In this document: positions 2,567 through 11,391 of the stretch, in pieces
Numbering within the stretch: position 1 is the stretch's first letter
Layout: every line of letters starts with the position of its first letter
NCBI RefSeq assembly: GCF_036860695.1
Contig: NZ_JAYKGJ010000003.1
Span: forward strand, 1-64,000
Source of the DNA: Rosettibacter firmus
GTDB taxonomy: Bacteria; Bacteroidota; Ignavibacteria; Ignavibacteriales; Melioribacteraceae
Length of the DNA: 64,000 nt
Reading direction: 5' to 3'
Position numbers and translations under genes: made by a program
Notes under the pieces: generated by a model
What the model saw: only the letters and a program-made list of their open reading frames with translations
Database searches by the model: none
Told to the model about the DNA's origin: nothing

Positions 2567-2645
2567 GTATAACTATTACTTATCCTGCACCGAAATATTT
2601 ATTTGAGAACGATATCCCGCACGGTGCTGCAGGATATCATTCCGG
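2567..2645 (-). repeat. attI-like recombination site D next to the deleted integrase
   Basis: On the minus strand the site ends in GTTATAC (2573-2567), the same core as the attC at 6058. Arms TATCCTGCACCG (2581-2592 on +) and CGGTGCTGCAGGATA (2622-2636) pair, leaving a 3-base bulge, as in folded attC arms. It sits 132 bases past the stop of the integrase remnant. Site C has the same layout (143 bases) beside the intact integrase, and the two are similar in sequence from the arm to the core. Only one core is visible, so attI is favoured over attC. Confidence 0.6.
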
Positions 2646-2704
2646 TAATTTAATTTTTGTTTCATAAAAAAATAGGGTCTGCATAATATCATTCCACTTG
2701 CTTT

Positions 2705-2930
2705 TCAGTCTAACAGCTCTTCACTCTAAGTCCTCTGTTAAAAAAAATGAGTGTAAATCATAGTAGTTTTTATACTTTTATGCCCAAGTATTTCTTGTAT
2801 GGTTCTTACCAAATCAAGTAGTTTCAGCTTGTGTTTTTCTTAATGAAGATTTACTGAATTGTATGAAATATTTTTCTGCCCTCTAAGCAAGTAACGTTTC
2901 CTTTTGCTTTCTGGTTATAACTTAAATCTA
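2705..2930 (-). pseudogene. Deleted integron integrase remnant
   Basis: The minus-strand reading keeps the integrase start region (LRGQKNISYNSVNL, then KLLDLVRT) fused directly to its C-terminal catalytic segment ([18 protein letters not shown]). About 820 bases are missing compared with the gene at 8354-9361. The junction lies where both flanks carry AGAAC, which suggests a microhomology deletion. There is an in-frame TAA after NSVNLH and further stops before the old C-terminus, so it is not functional. The upstream AAAAGGAA ribosome site and the TTG start are conserved with the intact gene. Confidence 0.85.
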
Positions 2931-3176
2931 TTTTTTTAGTTAATCAATAAAAAATGTTTTTGTGTCATTAGAAATAGTTTGCTTGTTTTACTTTCAAGTA
3001 GGTAACTTATCACACGGGATGACAATGTTATAATTGATACTCTGTTTTAATTTTTAATCAGCTTTATTAACTAAATCCAACTTCCATAAAAAACTATTCT
3101 AAAATCCAATGATAATTACTACATCAAACAATCCAGCCGAAGACATAATTACTTTGAATTGTATGTTATAAATTGT

Positions 3177-3734: not shown

Positions 3735-3803
3735 AGTTAGCTTACTATTAATTAACCCGCTTACAAATATAATTTCTGAAACAATATCCACCAAAGGCGA
3801 CTC
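3735..3803 (-). repeat. attI-like recombination site B, degenerate core
   Basis: The site shares the sequence CTATTAATTAACCCGC and the following spacing with site A at 10721-10790, so the two are copies of one element. The core that reads GTTAGGC in A is GTAAGCT here, so the crossover bases look decayed. It abuts an integrase N-terminal remnant directly, without the integrase 3' end. Confidence 0.55.
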
Positions 3804-3890
3804 AGTTTAGTTCTTACCAAATCGAGCAGTTTCGGTTTGTGATTTTTGACTTAAGGATTTCCGGAATTTGTAGAAATATTTAGTTTTCCA
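3800..3890 (-). pseudogene. Integron integrase N-terminal remnant
   Basis: In one minus-strand frame the sequence reads [16 protein letters not shown], which matches residues 18-34 of the intact integrase ([16 protein letters not shown]). The match to the DNA at 9273-9345 is also clear at base level. Everything downstream of this segment is missing, and site B follows immediately. Confidence 0.8.
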
Positions 3891-4199
3891 CTGTGCAAAA
3901 AAATATTTTCTTTGTTTGCCGATGGAAACTAAAAATATTTTTTTCTTGGTGCAAGATTTTTTAAAGAAATTTTCTTTACAGTCAGAACCTAATTTTTCAT
4001 CCACCTACTGCCTGACCCACCGCTGTCCAAAACTAATTATAAATCAAAAATTAACTCCCAATGCTATAAAACTTCTGATTGCTCTGCTTACTTTATGAAT
4101 GGGACCCTATATCGTCACAAATGGGACTTTTAATTCTTAGGATCATAAATATTACTGTAGAGTATAAAATAGATTAAAACCTCTTGCAACAGATGCACT

Positions 4200-5996: not shown

Positions 5997-6035
5997 TTAA
6001 GTTTGGTAATAAAAATAAGAAAAGAATTTTATCAT
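5997..6035 (-). CDS. Short leader peptide ahead of cassette lipoprotein
   Basis: Twelve codons (MIKFFSYFYYQT) start at 6035 behind GGAGGTGAAAC, the strongest ribosome site in the cassette region. The frame ends 21 bases before the lipoprotein ATG. Such leaders can promote translation of a cassette gene by coupling. The same ribosome site is also in frame with an extended lipoprotein start (MEVKHDKI), so the peptide itself may not matter. Confidence 0.35.
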   Translation of the reverse strand: MIKFFSYFYYQT

Positions 6036-6057
6036 GTTTCACCTCCATTTTTAGTAA

Positions 6058-6135
6058 GTATAACGGCTTGCTCATCAGCCGCACGCGGAGCGAGCGAAGC
6101 GATAGGAGCGTGTCGGCTGGATGCGCATGTTGGGC
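6058..6135 (-). repeat. attC recombination site (78 bp)
   Basis: On the minus strand the site opens with R'' GCCCAAC and closes with R' GTTATAC. Inside, CAGCCGACACGC pairs with GCGTGCGGCTG leaving one unpaired A in the 5' arm, the extrahelical base typical of attC sites (as in aadA-type sites). The outer arms (ATGCGCATC / GATGAGCAAG) pair imperfectly. This polarity fixes the cassette direction as minus, the same as the integrase. Confidence 0.85.
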
Positions 6136-6205
6136 GGCATTTCTCTTGTTACGGCACTATCGTCATACAAGCACGTGAATTTGGAGCAATGTAGTCTCCT
6201 GTCGT

Positions 6206-6674
6206 TTAGAACAAACCCCAACTTCCAGAATGAATCAGCGGTATAAAAGGGTAACGTGTCCAAGCATTAGCGTCACGCTCGTCAAAATTCATCGCTACTA
6301 CAACACCGCTTGGAATTGTTGTTCCTTTGACAAATACACCTTCGTTATAGGAACGTCTGGCATTAAATTGATTTATGGCTTTTTGGACAGTGGGGACACT
6401 TGTTTGTCCAACTTTCCATCTCGCAACTTCGCTTCGTTTTATCACCAAAGGGCAAGGATATTTGCCTTTAGGGGCGCTTGATGGTGGTGATGAAGTAGAT
6501 GTGGCTTGGTTGCATAATTTGCGGAGCCACCGTAGCAGTAGGCCGTTTAAGCGTGTCGATGCCAACATCGAGTTCTTCAAGATCCCATCCTGCTACACGT
6601 CCAAAAAACCATCCAAACAAGATAAGGAGGCCTGCAATTGGAAGTAACCAAGCCAAAGATTTTATGTCATTCAC
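6206..6674 (-). pseudogene. Membrane-anchored cassette protein, apparently frameshifted
   Basis: A GTG start at 6674 sits 6 bases after AAGGAG and opens a frame with one membrane helix (AWLLPIAGLLILFGWFFG), which stops at 6468. An overlapping frame to 6206 carries what looks like its continuation: a Ser/Pro/Thr linker (STSSPPSSAPKGKYP) and a domain ending HSGSWGLF. A one-base shift near 6500 joins them into one protein of about 155 residues. The gene is followed by the attC at 6058-6135, as expected of a cassette. Base composition is richer in GC than the host. No family recognised. Two separate small genes is the alternative. Confidence 0.5.
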
Positions 6675-6714
6675 GCCGCTCTCCTTGTTTCATGGTACAG
6701 CCGCGCAATGGTGT

Positions 6715-6832
6715 GCGTTACCTGCGCTGGGGCGGCCGGCGCGAAGCCATCCGATTGGAAAAATGATAAGGCGTTGGAAACTGTTTGAAAATACCACAGA
6801 ATCCCCAGCGTCCAGTGCACGCTTTGTTGGGT
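6715..6832 (-). repeat. attC-like quasi-palindrome with one degenerate core
   Basis: On the minus strand R'' is ACCCAAC (6832-6826). The 5' arm GCGTGCACTGGACGCTGGGG pairs with the 3' arm CCCCAGCGCAGGTAACGC, with two bases (GA) unpaired. The expected 3' core GTTRRRY is not present. The site lies between the VOC gene and the membrane-anchored gene, so it may be a decayed cassette boundary or one side of a cassette fusion. Confidence 0.5.
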
Positions 6833-6950
6833 GGCTACGAACTGAAACAGAAATTGATTGCCTAGCCGACCTGACCTTGATGGCTGGTACAACCAATACT
6901 GGCTCCGCTTGAATATGAAATCACTTTACCCCGCCCTACAGAAATCGCTA

Positions 6951-7310
6951 TCATTTTACAGGTTGACTTGGACGACTTTTGGAGAATTCGAGCAGATAGC
7001 GAGGTCGCCCGTCCGGGTCTCTAACACCAAAGACTTTGCCAAATGGGACATCTTTGAGCGCTAGAATAATTTCAGTTTTTTTAGATAAATCGCTGAATGC
7101 AGATTTGGCGTTATCGACCAGCCAAAACAATTCTTGATCGGCCTCACCGCCCATAGGCTCGTCGGCGGCAAGAGCAAAACCATCAAACTGCACATACGTT
7201 GGATGTTCACGTTGGACTTCAAGACCAAGTACTTCGACATAGAAGTTTTTTGCTGCTTCAATGTCCTTCACGTATTCCACGACGAACCCAAATTTCGGTT
7301 TGTTTTTCAT
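6951..7310 (-). CDS. VOC-superfamily (glyoxalase/bleomycin-resistance fold) protein
   Basis: The start at 7310 is chosen because AAGGAG lies 8 bases upstream. An in-frame ATG 18 bases earlier has no ribosome site. The 119-residue product has the vicinal-oxygen-chelate pattern: GFVVEYVKDIEAAKNFYVEVLGLEV at residues 8-32, and VRDPDGRPRYLLEF near 95-109. Members are glyoxalases, dioxygenases or binding proteins that sequester drugs; which one this is cannot be told. Such proteins are common integron cassette cargo. The gene begins about 70 bases after the GTTAGGC boundary at 7387, and its base composition differs from the host core. Confidence 0.75.
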   Translation of the reverse strand: MKNKPKFGFVVEYVKDIEAAKNFYVEVLGLEVQREHPTYVQFDGFALAADEPMGGEADQELFWLVDNAKSAFSDLSKKTEIILALKDVPFGKVFGVRDPDGRPRYLLEFSKSRPSQPVK

Positions 7311-7380
7311 CGATAGACTCCTTTGCATTTAGATTTCAGTTTAGCATCAGCACTCGCATTTTGCAACCAAGCAGTGTGCC

Positions 7381-7434
7381 GCCTAACGTCCGGCACCGGC
7401 GGCGCTCAGCGCAGTCCCCTGAGTCCTGGACCGC
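7381..7434 (-). repeat. attC-like site after the SDR cassette
   Basis: The site follows the SDR stop at once and ends in the core GTTAGGC (7387-7381) on the minus strand. GGTCCAGGAC and the CCGGTGCCGGAC before the core form the outer arms. CTCAG and CTGAG pair inside. A clear R'' core is missing, probably lost or overlapped by the stop codon. It marks the boundary between the SDR and VOC cassettes. Confidence 0.65.
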
Positions 7435-8187
7435 TCACAGAAGAAACCCCCCGGACACTTCGATGTCCTGGGCTGTCACCCAGCCAAAGGTGTCGGATAG
7501 CAGATTCGTGATTACCTTCGCCAGGTCCTCCGGCTCACCGATACGGCCGAGTGCGGTTTGATCCGCCAAGGGCTTGATATATTCGGGGTGCTTGTCGAAC
7601 GCTCCGTCCCCAAGGTTTGTGCGGACGGGTCCCGGCGAAACCGCGTTGACGCGGATCCGCCGCGCGGCGAGTTCCTTGGCGAGATAGCGGGTCCACGAAG
7701 TGAGTGCAGCCTTCGAGGCCCCATAGGCGGAGTAGCCGACGAAAGAGCCGCGACTAGCGTTGCTCGAAACATTGACGATGCTCCCGCCATCTTCCATCAA
7801 GCGGACCAGTCGCTGCGTCAGGAAGAACGGACCCTTGAAGTTCGTAGTCAGCATTCTGTCGAAGTACTCCTCGGTCATCTCCGAGAACACCATGCCGCCG
7901 CCGACACCGGCATTGTTAACAAGGTAGTCGAAAGTCGATCGCTTCCACACTCTCTCGAGCTCCAGCGCCGTTGATCGCGCGAACTCGTCGAAGGTCGCTG
8001 GGCGTGCGAGGTCGAGTTTCAGCGCGACGGCGGCCGCCCCGACCAGCTCGATGCTCCGCACTACGTCCCGTGCCCCTCGTTCGTTAGAATGATACGTCAG
8101 TAGGACGCCAACCCCGCGCCGGCCCAACTCGAGCGCCGTCGCCTTGCCGATGCCATTACTGCCACCCGTGATGATTGCAACTTTCAT
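7435..8187 (-). CDS. Short-chain dehydrogenase/reductase carried as a gene cassette
   Basis: The 250-residue product is a classical SDR: the cofactor motif TGGSNGIG at 7-14, NNAG near 90, catalytic Tyr-x-x-x-Lys in YGASKAA near 155, and SPGPVRTN after it. It would use NAD(P)H to reduce a carbonyl substrate that cannot be named. AGGAGG lies 6 bases before the ATG. The coding sequence is strikingly GC-rich against a host of roughly one-third GC, so it was recently acquired. It fills the space between two GTTAGGC cores (8211-8205 and 7387-7381) as a first-position cassette would. Confidence 0.85.
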   Translation of the reverse strand: MKVAIITGGSNGIGKATALELGRRGVGVLLTYHSNERGARDVVRSIELVGAAAVALKLDLARPATFDEFARSTALELERVWKRSTFDYLVNNAGVGGGMVFSEMTEEYFDRMLTTNFKGPFFLTQRLVRLMEDGGSIVNVSSNASRGSFVGYSAYGASKAALTSWTRYLAKELAARRIRVNAVSPGPVRTNLGDGAFDKHPEYIKPLADQTALGRIGEPEDLAKVITNLLSDTFGWVTAQDIEVSGGFLL

Positions 8188-8204
8188 GAAGCCTCCTCTT
8201 GGTC

Positions 8205-8276
8205 GCCTAACTATTACTTATACTGCACAGATTTATTACTTAAGGTACATAGATATGCGTGCAGCTGCATAAATAC
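8205..8276 (-). repeat. attI-like recombination site C at the integrase 3' side
   Basis: The core GTTAGGC (8211-8205 on the minus strand) starts the SDR cassette. Arms TATACTGCACAG (8219-8230) and GTGCAGCTGCATAAATA (8259-8275) pair with a 3-base bulge, as at site D. The integrase stop is 143 bases away. Only one core is seen, which fits a primary attI site placed downstream of an inverted integrase gene. Confidence 0.65.
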
Positions 8277-8353
8277 GTGCCAATTATTCTCAAATCTTCT
8301 CAAAATCCCAATATTTAAAAATAGGTTGTGCATATATATCATCCTTACTCATT

Positions 8354-9361
8354 TCAGTCTAACGGACTTCTAACTCCAAGTCCTCTGTTTAAAACATGGG
8401 TATATATCATTGTTGTTTTAACAGAATGGTGCCCCAATAGCTCTTGTATTGTTCTGATATCATAACCGTTTTCTAATAAGTGAGTAGCAAAACTATGCCT
8501 GAACGTGTGAGGACTACCTGGTTTTATAATCCCTGCTTTCTTTATTGCTTCTTTAACAGCTCTTTGGATGGTGCTTTCGTGAATATGCCATCTCAAAATT
8601 AAACCGCTATCTTTATTTTTTATAAATTTATCAGCAGGAAAAGCATACTGCCATCCAAATTCCTTGTCTGCGTTTGGGTATTTCTTTTTCAATGCATAAG
8701 GAAGAATTGTTTCCCCTTTTCCTCTCTTCAAATCTTCTTTGTATTTTAAGCAAACTCTATTTAGATGTTTCTTTAAATCGGGAATTAAAGAATCTGGTAG
8801 AATAGTATGTCTGTCTTTCTCACCTTTACCATCTCTAACCAATATCTGTTTATAATCAAAATCGATATCTTTTATTCTTAATCTCAAGGCCTCAGATAAT
8901 CTTAGTCCGCTTCCGTAGAGAAGAGATACAACTAGTTTTGGAATTCCAGTTAAATTGTCAATAATCTTTGCGGTTTCTTTCTTTGAGAAGACAACAGGCA
9001 AATGTTTAACTCTTGTGGCGTGTTTTATTTCATCTATCCAGCCAACTTCTTTTTTCAATATTCTTTTATATAAAAACAGAATTGCCTGCAACGCCTGGTT
9101 CTGAGTTGAACTGGAAACATTATTATTTACAGCAAGGTGATTTATAAAATTCTGAATCTCTTCTTTCCCCATTTCATTCGGATGTCTTTTATTGTGAAAT
9201 AGAATGTATCTCTTTATCCAACCAACATAAGCCTCTTCGGTTTTAGTGCTGTAATGATTAACTCGCAGTTCGGTTCTTACCAAATCGAGCAGTTTCGGCT
9301 TATGATTTTCTTTCTGAAGATTTACTGAATTGTATGAAATATTTTTCTGCCCTCTAAGCAA
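8354..9361 (-). CDS. intI: Integron integrase (IntI-type tyrosine recombinase)
   Basis: The 335-residue product is a tyrosine recombinase with an N-terminal SAM-like DNA-binding domain (about residues 22-105). The catalytic set is visible: Arg154 (GLRLSEALRLR), Lys near 179-182, HTFRH at 285-289, His311 and Tyr320 (MIYTH). The extra segment at about 205-265, with LKRGKGETILPYAL, KYP and WQYAFP, is the insertion specific to integron integrases and absent from XerC/D. The end LNRGLGVRSPLD is also typical. It cuts and joins attI and attC sites to insert or reorder gene cassettes. The TTG start is supported by an AAAGGAA site and by conservation in two remnants. It lies on the same strand as its cassettes. 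Confidence 0.93.
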   Translation of the reverse strand: MLRGQKNISYNSVNLQKENHKPKLLDLVRTELRVNHYSTKTEEAYVGWIKRYILFHNKRHPNEMGKEEIQNFINHLAVNNNVSSSTQNQALQAILFLYKRILKKEVGWIDEIKHATRVKHLPVVFSKKETAKIIDNLTGIPKLVVSLLYGSGLRLSEALRLRIKDIDFDYKQILVRDGKGEKDRHTILPDSLIPDLKKHLNRVCLKYKEDLKRGKGETILPYALKKKYPNADKEFGWQYAFPADKFIKNKDSGLILRWHIHESTIQRAVKEAIKKAGIIKPGSPHTFRHSFATHLLENGYDIRTIQELLGHHSVKTTMIYTHVLNRGLGVRSPLD

Positions 9362-9858
9362 GTAAGTAATATTTCCTTTTGCTTTCTGGTTACAACTTAA
9401 ATTTATTTTTCACTATAGTCAATAAAAATATTTCAGCCACTAATTAACATTAATGTTTTGAAACTCTTTTGCAATGAACCCAAGATTTTACATTATCAAT
9501 CCTTAATTTCTTCCACAGATAAGGCTCTTGGTAACTAAATAAATGCTTATTGAACGGAGAAATTAGTTTTTAATAATTATTCAGTTTTTTCTTAGAAAGT
9601 CTTATTACTTAACTTAGCAGCAACAACTTTGTTTTTAAGTCACCGCTTGCAGTCCGTTAGATCCTTACGGAGTCTAACGACTCAACACAGCAATGTTGCT
9701 TTTCCCGAAGGAATCCCTGCGGGAGAAAAACAACGCCTATAATTATTTGTTCTGTTCACAAAACTCAAAGAGCAATTACTAATTTTAACGCAACTTTATA
9801 ACCACACAAATGCCGCAATGTTTAAAGTAGTCGCTTTGAGTTGCGTGTTAGGCATTTA
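9362..9858. other. Integrase upstream region with structured repeats
   Basis: No gene is visible. Next to the integrase lies a conserved upstream stretch (to about 9410) that also survives in the remnants. Further on are two strong hairpins: CGTTAGA/TCTAACG around 9654-9679, and a GTTG...CGGG type stem around 9692-9735. After those comes the attC-like sequence at 9764-9853. Position suggests the integrase promoter lies within 9362-9450. Confidence 0.5.
9764..9853 (-). repeat. attC-like site after the membrane-protein cassette
   Basis: The core GCCTAAC (9853-9847, minus strand) follows the stop of the gene at 9859 by a few bases. ACTCAAAG and CTTTGAGT form the outer arms, and a second imperfect pairing (ACTACTTTAAAC with GTTAAAATTAGT) extends the stem. 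A matching 3' core is not adjacent. The nearest is GTTAGAC at 9678-9672, so the full site may extend that far. Confidence 0.5.
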
Positions 9859-10710
9859 TTAGAAAAATTTTTCTCTTTTATCTAGATAATCTAAATCAAT
9901 TCTTTTTGCCGAACTTTTTACAGCAGAATCATTTTGGAATTCATCATACTTTATTTGTAAATATGTTGAAGGCAACTCTTTCACTTGTGCTTTATCATCA
10001 TAAAAATGAATTTCTCTAATAATTTCATTATATAATTCATAAGATCCTTTAATGTTGCCTTGAATTAAAAGAATTGTTCCGTTTATTTCTGATGAATATT
10101 TAGTAGCGGCAAAAATGCTGTTGAAGCTATCATCTCTAACTTTCTTCGTTTCTTCTAACTCCTTATAGCTTGTCAAAATTTTATCTAACCGATTCTGAAT
10201 ATGTCTATATTCAAAGTATTTATGGAAAATCTTCTTTAGTAAATCATAGTTTAGACAAACTGTAGTTAATTCAGCAAATATTTTTTCTGTGATAAAAAAA
10301 GATAAACCGAATGTAGGGAGTAGACGAACATATAGATAAGCATGAAGTTGGCATTCCAAATCTAAATTTCTTTTTACTTCTTCAGATAGAACTTTTAGGA
10401 TTCCTATATATTTATCTTTAGAACGTTTCTTATCTAAATGTCTCAGGTACAACTGCGATAGTAGAAAAGAAACAATACCAACAATCAACGTAAATAAAGC
10501 AGGCAATAAATATTTCATCAGCCAAGGATCACGATCAGATTTCATTATTATTATGAGACTATCGATTCTTCCTACTTGAGTGGTTATCGAATCTTTATAG
10601 AACAATGTCGTGACAACCTTGTTACGTTCAGGATTTATAACCTTTTTTTGCTGACACAATGTTGGACAGCTAAGATATAAGATTATAAAAAGAATAAAAC
10701 ATTTTTTCAT
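9859..10710 (-). CDS. Membrane protein of unknown function (cassette gene)
   Basis: The 283-residue protein has a signal-like N-terminus (MKKCFILFIILYLSC, Cys15 could be a lipobox), a membrane helix near residues 68-90 (LLPALFTLIVGIVSFLLSQL), and then a long largely helical cytoplasmic part with charged, coiled-coil-like segments. No family recognised. It lies exactly between a GTTAGGC core at 10727-10721 and a GCCTAAC core at 9853-9847, so it is a gene cassette. Composition is AT-rich like the host. Confidence 0.65.
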   Translation of the reverse strand: MKKCFILFIILYLSCPTLCQQKKVINPERNKVVTTLFYKDSITTQVGRIDSLIIIMKSDRDPWLMKYLLPALFTLIVGIVSFLLSQLYLRHLDKKRSKDKYIGILKVLSEEVKRNLDLECQLHAYLYVRLLPTFGLSFFITEKIFAELTTVCLNYDLLKKIFHKYFEYRHIQNRLDKILTSYKELEETKKVRDDSFNSIFAATKYSSEINGTILLIQGNIKGSYELYNEIIREIHFYDDKAQVKELPSTYLQIKYDEFQNDSAVKSSAKRIDLDYLDKREKFF

Positions 10711-10720
10711 AATGTAAAAT

Positions 10721-10790
10721 GCCTAACTATTAATTAACCCGCCAATAAATATCATTATCTGGAATGATACCCGCCAGAGGCGGACAAGTC
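10721..10790 (-). repeat. attI-like recombination site A
   Basis: The minus strand ends in GTTAGGC (10727-10721), which starts the cassette with the gene at 9859-10710. ATCATT and AATGAT (10751-10768) form a short hairpin. CCGCC and GGCGG elements form an outer one. Bases near the core match site B at 3735. An integrase remnant lies about 115 bases upstream. Confidence 0.6.
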
Positions 10791-10904
10791 TACCAGCGTT
10801 TTGTTTATTTTTAATTAAAATTCTCAATTTCTTGTTTAATATCACTCTTATCTAAATTATGCTGTCTATCGTTAATCAAATAAAAAATAATTTTTATATG
10901 AATA

Positions 10905-11015
10905 ACCAATCACTGTTTTTCGATTTTCTGTTTGAGGATTTACGATAGTTGGTAAAAGATTTCGTTGCCCTCTAAGCAAGTAATATTTCCTTTTGTTTTG
11001 CAATATAACTTAAAA
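10905..11015 (-). pseudogene. Integron integrase N-terminal remnant
   Basis: From the TTG at 10979 the frame reads LLRGQRN then VNPQTENRK, which aligns with the integrase start (LRGQKN, VNLQKENHK). The ribosome site AAAAGGAA and the sequence upstream are nearly identical to those at 9362-9410. Nothing of the catalytic domain remains between this point and site A. Confidence 0.8.
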
Positions 11016-11391
11016 AATATTTTCTCTGGTGTCAATTGGTTAATAGTAATTTTTAATGTGCTTTCAGTCTTTATATAACCCCTTCATAAAACTGACAAAA
11101 AATATTTATTACATTGCTAAATGATTACAAAACCAGTTTATTCATTTCTTGCATTTAATCAATGATTTATTTTGTTGAATTGTTTTACTAACCTTTACAT
11201 TCTAATTAGTAATATAAAAACAAATCTATCATTTTCTATCTATTTAATATTAATAGATAAACTTTCTTACTCTACTTACTTTTATTTTTATCATTTATTG
11301 AAAAGTATTAACTCATAGCATAATTTTTATGTTAAGTTACTTTTAAAAATTTACTATTTTTATAAACAAACCTGATTAGTAATAATTAAAA

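Follow-up and report, generated by a model that had tools for sequence, protein, structure and literature searches.

The usual description of an integron has a single integrase, a single attI and a single cassette array. In class 1 integrons, attI1 consists of L, R, DR1 and DR2 (PMC8946536), with a single L-R core beside intI, extra repeats upstream of it and cassette insertion in G^TTRRRY (PMC8946536, PMC4792948). The integrons of Treponema have intI transcribed toward attI, so that intI and cassettes share a strand and attI follows the intI stop; one attI is stated per integron (PMC3607928). Complete integrons are already known in Ignavibacteriae, and cassettes without a neighboring integrase are found in CALIN, clusters of attC lacking an integrase (PMC9024848). 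The nearest precedents for sites elsewhere are attG sites, used by the integrase off the canonical attI but neither attC nor attI (PMC12901181, PMC12444791), and delta-attI cassettes, in which attI copies lie inside arrays (PMC12901181). Since attI outside class 1 is poorly described and goes undetected by IntegronFinder (PMC9024848), loci like those presented here would not be recognized as having attI.

We analyzed a stretch of 64,000 nt (the window; positions 1 to 64000 of contig C3) from a 3.24-Mb AT-rich genome (31% GC), in which four sites, A to D, had been noted. Their layout can be likened to that of attI1, but here the repeats include a palindromic pair at fixed spacing, the centre of which is complementary to the L flank, and many copies occur without intI. 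Site C and its integrase follow the Treponema-type arrangement, whereas several attI are present per genome, most of them without intI. In contrast to CALIN, the cassette is headed by a conserved attI, often with a promoter-like element, and in contrast to the delta-attI copies, which are parts of unusual resistance cassettes, whole attI modules of ∼150 nt are conserved in dozens of genomes. Our search of the open-access literature, to which it was confined, returned no description of conserved, multicopy, integrase-less attI.

The explanation that we favor, and hold to be probable, is that A to D are attI sites of two IntI lineages and act as double-stranded attI rather than as attI/attC intermediates. 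An intact site would form an array of IntI-box-like repeats on duplex DNA, made up of DR1, a palindromic box pair (S1) at fixed spacing and the L-R core, and at this core IntI would join the folded attC of a cassette. Platforms composed of a promoter and attI, with intI intact, internally deleted or absent, would have been copied around Ignavibacteriales genomes, with the remaining IntI loading cassettes at intI-less attI in trans and the platform's own promoter transcribing the first cassette. If this is true, a genome would hold many expression-ready attI, mostly without integrase, numerous positions on the chromosome could receive a captured gene as the first one behind a promoter, and integrase-based surveys would pass over such platforms, given how little attI has been described beyond class 1 (PMC9024848).

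Site C and its integrase

The features of the window are listed in Table 1. The intact integrase not only scores far above the TIGR02249 cut-off but also aligns over its full length with the IntI of PDB 2a3v (284 bits), including the C-terminal tyrosine-recombinase motifs, HTFRHSFATHLLE and one of 14 residues, which places it in the integron-specific IntI family. Its closest named relatives are found in Stygiobacter electus, Melioribacteraceae and Ignavibacteriales MAGs, from which we place the host in Ignavibacteriales. Transcription of the gene runs toward site C and the cassettes. In integrons from other orders of the class (L152, L160, L166 and L146), intI seemingly is also transcribed toward attI, and palindromic repeats, such as GTGTTAGACGGAAACCGTATAACAC-like sequences, appear to lie 3' of its stop.

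Table 1. Features of the window discussed in the text
Feature	Position	Strand	Basis
Site D, attI of C/D family, best-folding palindrome	2567..2649	-	Model 83.6 bits; fold z -3.55
intI of platform D with internal deletion joining N-terminus to C-terminus	2705..2890	-	Relic comparison
Promoter-like element, platform D	2919..2947	-	Motif search
Site A, decayed-looking attI of A/B family, core GTAAGCT	3739..3820	-	Sequence
intI N-terminus relic adjoining A	3803..3898	-	Relic comparison
First cassette gene at C, SDR oxidoreductase, 61% GC	7435..8187	-	Sequence
Site C, attI of intact integron, C/D family	8205..8287	-	Covariance model R2, 87.9 bits; 16-site alignment
L-R core of C, TATAAG-TAATA-GTTAGGC, crossover G^TTAGGC	8205..8222	-	Sequence, alignment
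S2 of C, 3' strand GTGCAGT, abutting L box	8222..8228	-	cis complementarity
Palindrome S1 of C, 3' arm	8244..8258	-	Alignment, covariation
S2 of C, 5' strand GCTGCAC, centre of palindrome	8259..8265	-	cis complementarity
Palindrome S1 of C, 5' arm	8267..8281	-	Alignment, covariation
DR1 GGATGATATATATGCA, directly 3' of intI stop	8329..8344	-	Sequence; kept in relatives
IntI, intact integron integrase	8354..9361	-	TIGR02249, 444 bits (cut-off 265)
Promoter-like TTGAC-N18-TAAGTT, upstream of intI (platform C)	9394..9422	-	Motif search
Cassette gene at B	9859..10710	-	attC R'' GCCTAAC (9847-9853), complementary to B core
Site B, attI of A/B family; palindrome 10750-10769; core GTTAGGC 10721-10727	10721..10800	-	Sequence
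Palindromic insert TTGTCCGCCTCTGGCGGG within site B	10770..10787	-	Sequence
Promoter-like element, platform B	11007..11035	-	Motif; short intI relic alone between element and B

The original prediction gave coordinates for C only, and we located A, B and D through a shared 16-mer and a C-like core. The span that it assigned to C (8205-8276) proved too short, as the element reaches 8287 and is accompanied by DR1 upstream. The proposed layout, with sites 130 to 145 bases from the integrase stop, agrees with what we observe: site C starts 145 nt after the intI stop and D ∼131 nt after the relic of one. In the relatives of the clade, the same order is kept 3' of the stop, with DR1 (..ATATATGCA) followed by a variable stretch of near-constant length, S1, a spacer and the core, which reads TATAAGTAATAGTTATAC or ..GTTAGGC and in which the L and R boxes are inverted. 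The 5' arm of S1 resembles DR1. These repeats of similar sequence, at fixed spacing upstream of the L-R core, are candidate IntI boxes on the strength of their sequence, and IntI is predicted to bind them.

Sites C and D and 14 sites from relatives could be aligned over 83 nt with zero indels, and a single covariance model fits both C and D. Twenty columns are invariant among the 16 sites, most of them outside the core heptamer, so that the resemblance of C and D is not limited to the core. The alignment and model make attI searchable in Ignavibacteriales, and the conserved palindrome together with S2, the complementarity of its centre to the L flank, offers precise and testable features for the recognition of attI by IntI.

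A location beside intI is found for C and for relatives of both families, while A, B and D adjoin intI relics; the relic is evident behind B and less clear behind A. Both B and C have a single GTTRRRY core at the cassette boundary without attC partner boxes. The D core, GTTATAC, is off the strict consensus and is common in relatives. Site A, with a core that does not conform to GTTRRRY, looks decayed.

A palindromic insert of ∼20 bp (CTTGTCCGCC..GGCGGA-like) was observed in several attI modules, namely site B, L008 and L186 (in DR1) and, in related form, L128. Some other attI copies carry insertions of ∼19 to 21 or 41 nt.

Two families of attI

As had been predicted, A (3745) and B (10727) share CTATTAATTAACCCGC as an exact 16-mer. 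Allowing up to three mismatches, we found three matches in the window against 0.59 expected, a number reached in none of 100 shuffles. A tree of 83 IntI proteins groups the integrases with C/D-type sites in one clade of 15 (99/87), that of the window included, and those with A/B-type (GGCGGGTTAA) sites or GGCAG variants in another, of 12 (99/95); further attI types go with further clades. The Stygiobacter integrase (L114) was placed in the A/B clade and conforms to this rule. Judged from the tree, each of two IntI clades has its cognate attI type, C/D in one and A/B in the other, as would be expected from the co-evolution of attI and IntI proposed in the literature (PMC8946536).

The attI-like elements are indeed of attI type and form two families, but the families reflect two IntI clades rather than two ages of modules beside one integrase type. 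Only remnants of an A/B-clade integrase are present in the genome of the window. The wide occurrence of both families in multiple and mostly integrase-free copies across the order had escaped the original prediction.

Dispersal without an integrase

The whole genome has eight attI-type sites and one intact IntI, which adjoins site C. Four sites were returned by the C/D covariance model (C, D, C6:6253-6335 and C7:50-132) and four have A/B cores (C3:10724, C3:3744, C6:322 and C6:11263). Of the 164 Ignavibacteriales genomes searched, 64 gave C/D-type matches at an E value of 0.01 or below, many in multiple copies and up to 12 per genome. Order-wide, 79 C/D-type matches reach at least 50 bits, about 14 of them beside an integrase (counted manually from the match list). 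A/B cores were found at 58 places in 31 of the 164 genomes, against one match for a reversed-pattern control. Across the phylum, all 16 positive genomes among 296 belong to the same order. For 30 of 45 additional C/D sites, the sequence inspected upstream (1.5 kb in most cases, 49 to 383 nt for L172 and L175) held no detectable intI relic. Sites without an integrase retain the spacing of the element.

This dispersal is also observed in closed genomes (G071, G069 and G058) and so is no product of contig breaks. G071 has three sites at 1.55, 1.97 and 2.71 Mb and the integrase at 3.15 Mb. Some genomes bear sites and lack IntI: closed G058 has two A/B sites and no integron integrase above the cut-off, and in G154 (99% complete) we found six C/D-type matches, several of them weak, besides seven A/B cores, of which three contain one mismatch, again with no integron integrase above the cut-off and with Xer-like recombinases alone.

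Along the window contig the families alternate (B-C-A-D, that is, A/B, C/D, A/B, C/D), as they do on contig C6 (A/B, C/D, A/B). We set this pattern aside: it would arise by accident about once in nine times, and neighbors of the same family exist elsewhere.

Cassettes at the sites

When a cassette enters, the left core receives its TTRRRY from the cassette, whose attC is expected to carry the complement as R''. Crude attC pattern searches did not separate attC from background, and we searched instead the 2 kb downstream of each site for its core heptamer in reverse complement, using permuted cores as the control. It was present at 26 of 43 orphan C/D sites (4.1 expected), where a few of these loci have an intI relic upstream and none has an intact intI there, at 13 of 19 A/B sites (control, 1.5) and at 19 of 39 intI-adjacent sites (control, 2.8); these counts rest on the R'' heptamer, full attC stems being clear in few cassettes. 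In the window, the cassette at B carries this complement (Table 1), and no R'' was recognized for the SDR cassette at C.

Two unrelated attI from different genera are each followed, from the core on, by one 724-bp cassette that is 100% identical in both places, whereas upstream of the core identity is 31%. In G158, five platforms are 86 to 95% identical over ∼290 to 370 bp and lose homology at the core. An ATG-initiated ORF of at least 60 codons begins within 140 nt of the core at 35 of 42 orphan sites (median, 29 nt). To judge from these sequences, integrase-less sites hold genuine cassettes. A remaining IntI may have inserted them in trans, rather than their having been loaded before intI was lost.

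The first cassettes at C (window 6000-8200) encode SDR and glyoxalase-like proteins and have a GC content of ∼50 to 61% in a genome of 31%, which suggests recent capture from a distant donor.

Promoter-like element and copying of platforms

The platforms of B, C and D in the window have a promoter-like element. Its exact form, TTGAC-N18-TAAGTT, precedes 9 of 45 orphan C/D sites, 212 to 318 nt before the core, and a looser form precedes 16 of the 45, out to 360 nt. At intI-less sites the spacer is exactly 18 nt; no motif was found at other spacings from 12 to 24 or on the other strand. Where a platform bears intI, the looser motif lies mostly ∼1.15 to 1.3 kb before the core, i.e., upstream of intI. 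The element is a putative promoter from which the platform would be transcribed.

Upstream of the promoter, a segment of ∼400 bp is 88% identical before three platforms (window 9422-9833; L168 5540-5940 and 10558-10970). Since it starts inside the preceding attC, the repeated unit may consist of part of an attC, a spacer, the promoter and attI. This raised the idea of platforms moving in the manner of cassettes, bounded by an attC and their own attI, which we abandoned, as their left ends do not lie on a core.

Orphan platforms could alternatively be nonautonomous mobile elements, MITE-like derivatives of intI-attI multiplied as units, perhaps by recombination between attI sites. One internal intI deletion is common to D and a copy on contig C6, and the short intI relic of platform B recurs in two further C6 copies. 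The five near-identical deleted copies in G158 also speak for such elements, as do two precedents from class 1 integrons, recombination between attI sites and cassettes of attI type (PMC4792948, PMC12901181), but we hold this alternative to be rather unlikely. Their left ends, however, are inconstant, and the picture would be no different under segmental duplication or gene conversion; the C/D copy on C6 looks chimeric.

Internal intI deletions recur in two integrase lineages, joining codons ∼42 and ∼274 in the numbering of TIGR02249, and were seen in the window (2705-2890), at L168 6067-6183 and in G069 (C1:1463086-1463322 and 2688686-2688913), where frames of 113 to 156 amino acids are still open. 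AGAAC is present at both deletion ends in the gene of the window, which makes a repeat-mediated deletion possible.

Duplex boxes or a folded strand

The paired arms that had been predicted are borne out by comparison of sites, though not for C and A taken singly. Across the 16 C/D sites, S1 is a 15-bp palindrome in which 89.2% of cells are paired and 8 of 15 pairs are changed on both sides (21 such cells), covariation that none of 500 shuffles equaled. Folded as single-stranded DNA in the intI sense, D (z = -3.55) and, weakly, B (z = -1.32) do better than shuffled sequence, while C (z = +0.89) and A (z = +1.69) do not and, taken singly, fail the refuting check set by the original prediction.

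For S2, the sequence varies from site to site and the complementarity in cis is kept (CTGCAC/GTGCAG, GCACCG/CGGTGC, CTGCGT/ACGCAG, GCATGT/ACATGC and GCTGAGC/GTTCAGC). The summed longest Watson-Crick run was 93 in the first set of sites, against 68.8 ± 4.0 with permuted partners, and 224 against 181.9 ± 5.5 in 43 further sites that had played no part in the discovery; neither value was reached in 5,000 permutations, counts that are not to be read as probabilities because related sequences are not independent. Eight sites have S2 in the same register; in these, 98.2% of its cells are paired and three of seven pairs are doubly changed. Integrase boxes alone leave this complementarity unexplained.

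Folding of a single strand should tolerate G.T over A.C. In the first set, G.T pairs lengthen S2 by 19 and A.C pairs by 0, against an expectation of 8.5 for the latter (P = 0.0001). Over all types of site, the helices that reach the pre-core segment have 35 G.T against 16 A.C, the numbers in trans being 329 and 310. No such asymmetry was found for S2 in the 43 new sites (22 versus 22) or for S1 in the first set (7 versus 8). Given the absence of bias in these two cases, the poor folding of C and the zero indels, which fit duplex geometry, integrase boxes on duplex DNA appear likelier than an attC-like hairpin. A strand-specific pseudoknot may nevertheless form at the C/D attI. It enters a broader proposal, which we regard as doubtful: the dispersed integrons of Ignavibacteriales would consist of promoter-attI platforms of at least two families, nonautonomous, multiplying and loaded in trans, with attI forming a strand-specific H-type pseudoknot that serves in recombination or in cassette expression.

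The distance of the palindrome centre from the core (∼51, 40 and 74 nt) suggests phasing by helical turns, but with steps of 11 to 12 and 22 to 23 nt we make no claim of it.

The same S1 and S2 could instead belong to a structured RNA leader, an H-type pseudoknot in the transcript from the promoter to the first cassette that regulates or stabilizes the cassette mRNA, its location at attI being secondary. The cis complementarity of S2 in two separate sets, the G.T excess in the first set and in the pre-core helices and the promoter-like element upstream all agree with this. We nevertheless judge it unlikely: the G.T excess is absent from S2 in the 43 new sites and from S1 in the first set, zero indels in 16 sites would be unusual for an RNA loop and C folds no better than its shuffles. 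A riboswitch claimed for attI1 was unsupported by experiment (PMC9410878), which calls for caution with an RNA interpretation. Covariation is strong, with a strand asymmetry present in one set and absent from the other, and an Rfam search gave no match except a tRNA.

Orphan sites and decay

Some orphan sites have decayed, A and several others among them, so part of the attI family is fossil. That all intI-less sites are mere fossils of complete integrons, with no present function, would accord with the broken core of A and its lack of a significant fold, with the broken S2 of several orphans and with the absence of a second intact intI from most genomes. Set against this, the orphans L173, L182, L186 and L211 are among those with a perfect or near-perfect S1, an S2 of 7 to 8 bp and DR1, and L173 also has the promoter-like element. 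Moreover, attC-type cassettes occur at orphans at least as often as at intI-adjacent sites, and we find it unlikely that these sites are fossils throughout.

Despite their palindromic arms and GTTRRRY cores, it is very improbable that the sites are attC-like or decayed attC left over from CALIN, or that their features lie between those of attI and attC as the original prediction had it, since each has a single core with no R''/L'' partner in place of paired R''-R' and L''-L' boxes folding on one strand, C and A fold no better than shuffles, the position right after intI is conserved across the clade as the attI of relatives and cassettes start, rather than end, at the core.

The attI of other IntI clades in the order (L012, L018, L024, L129 and related loci) are differently built, and in several of them the partner of the pre-core segment is not the centre of the palindrome but a hairpin loop or a strand farther upstream.
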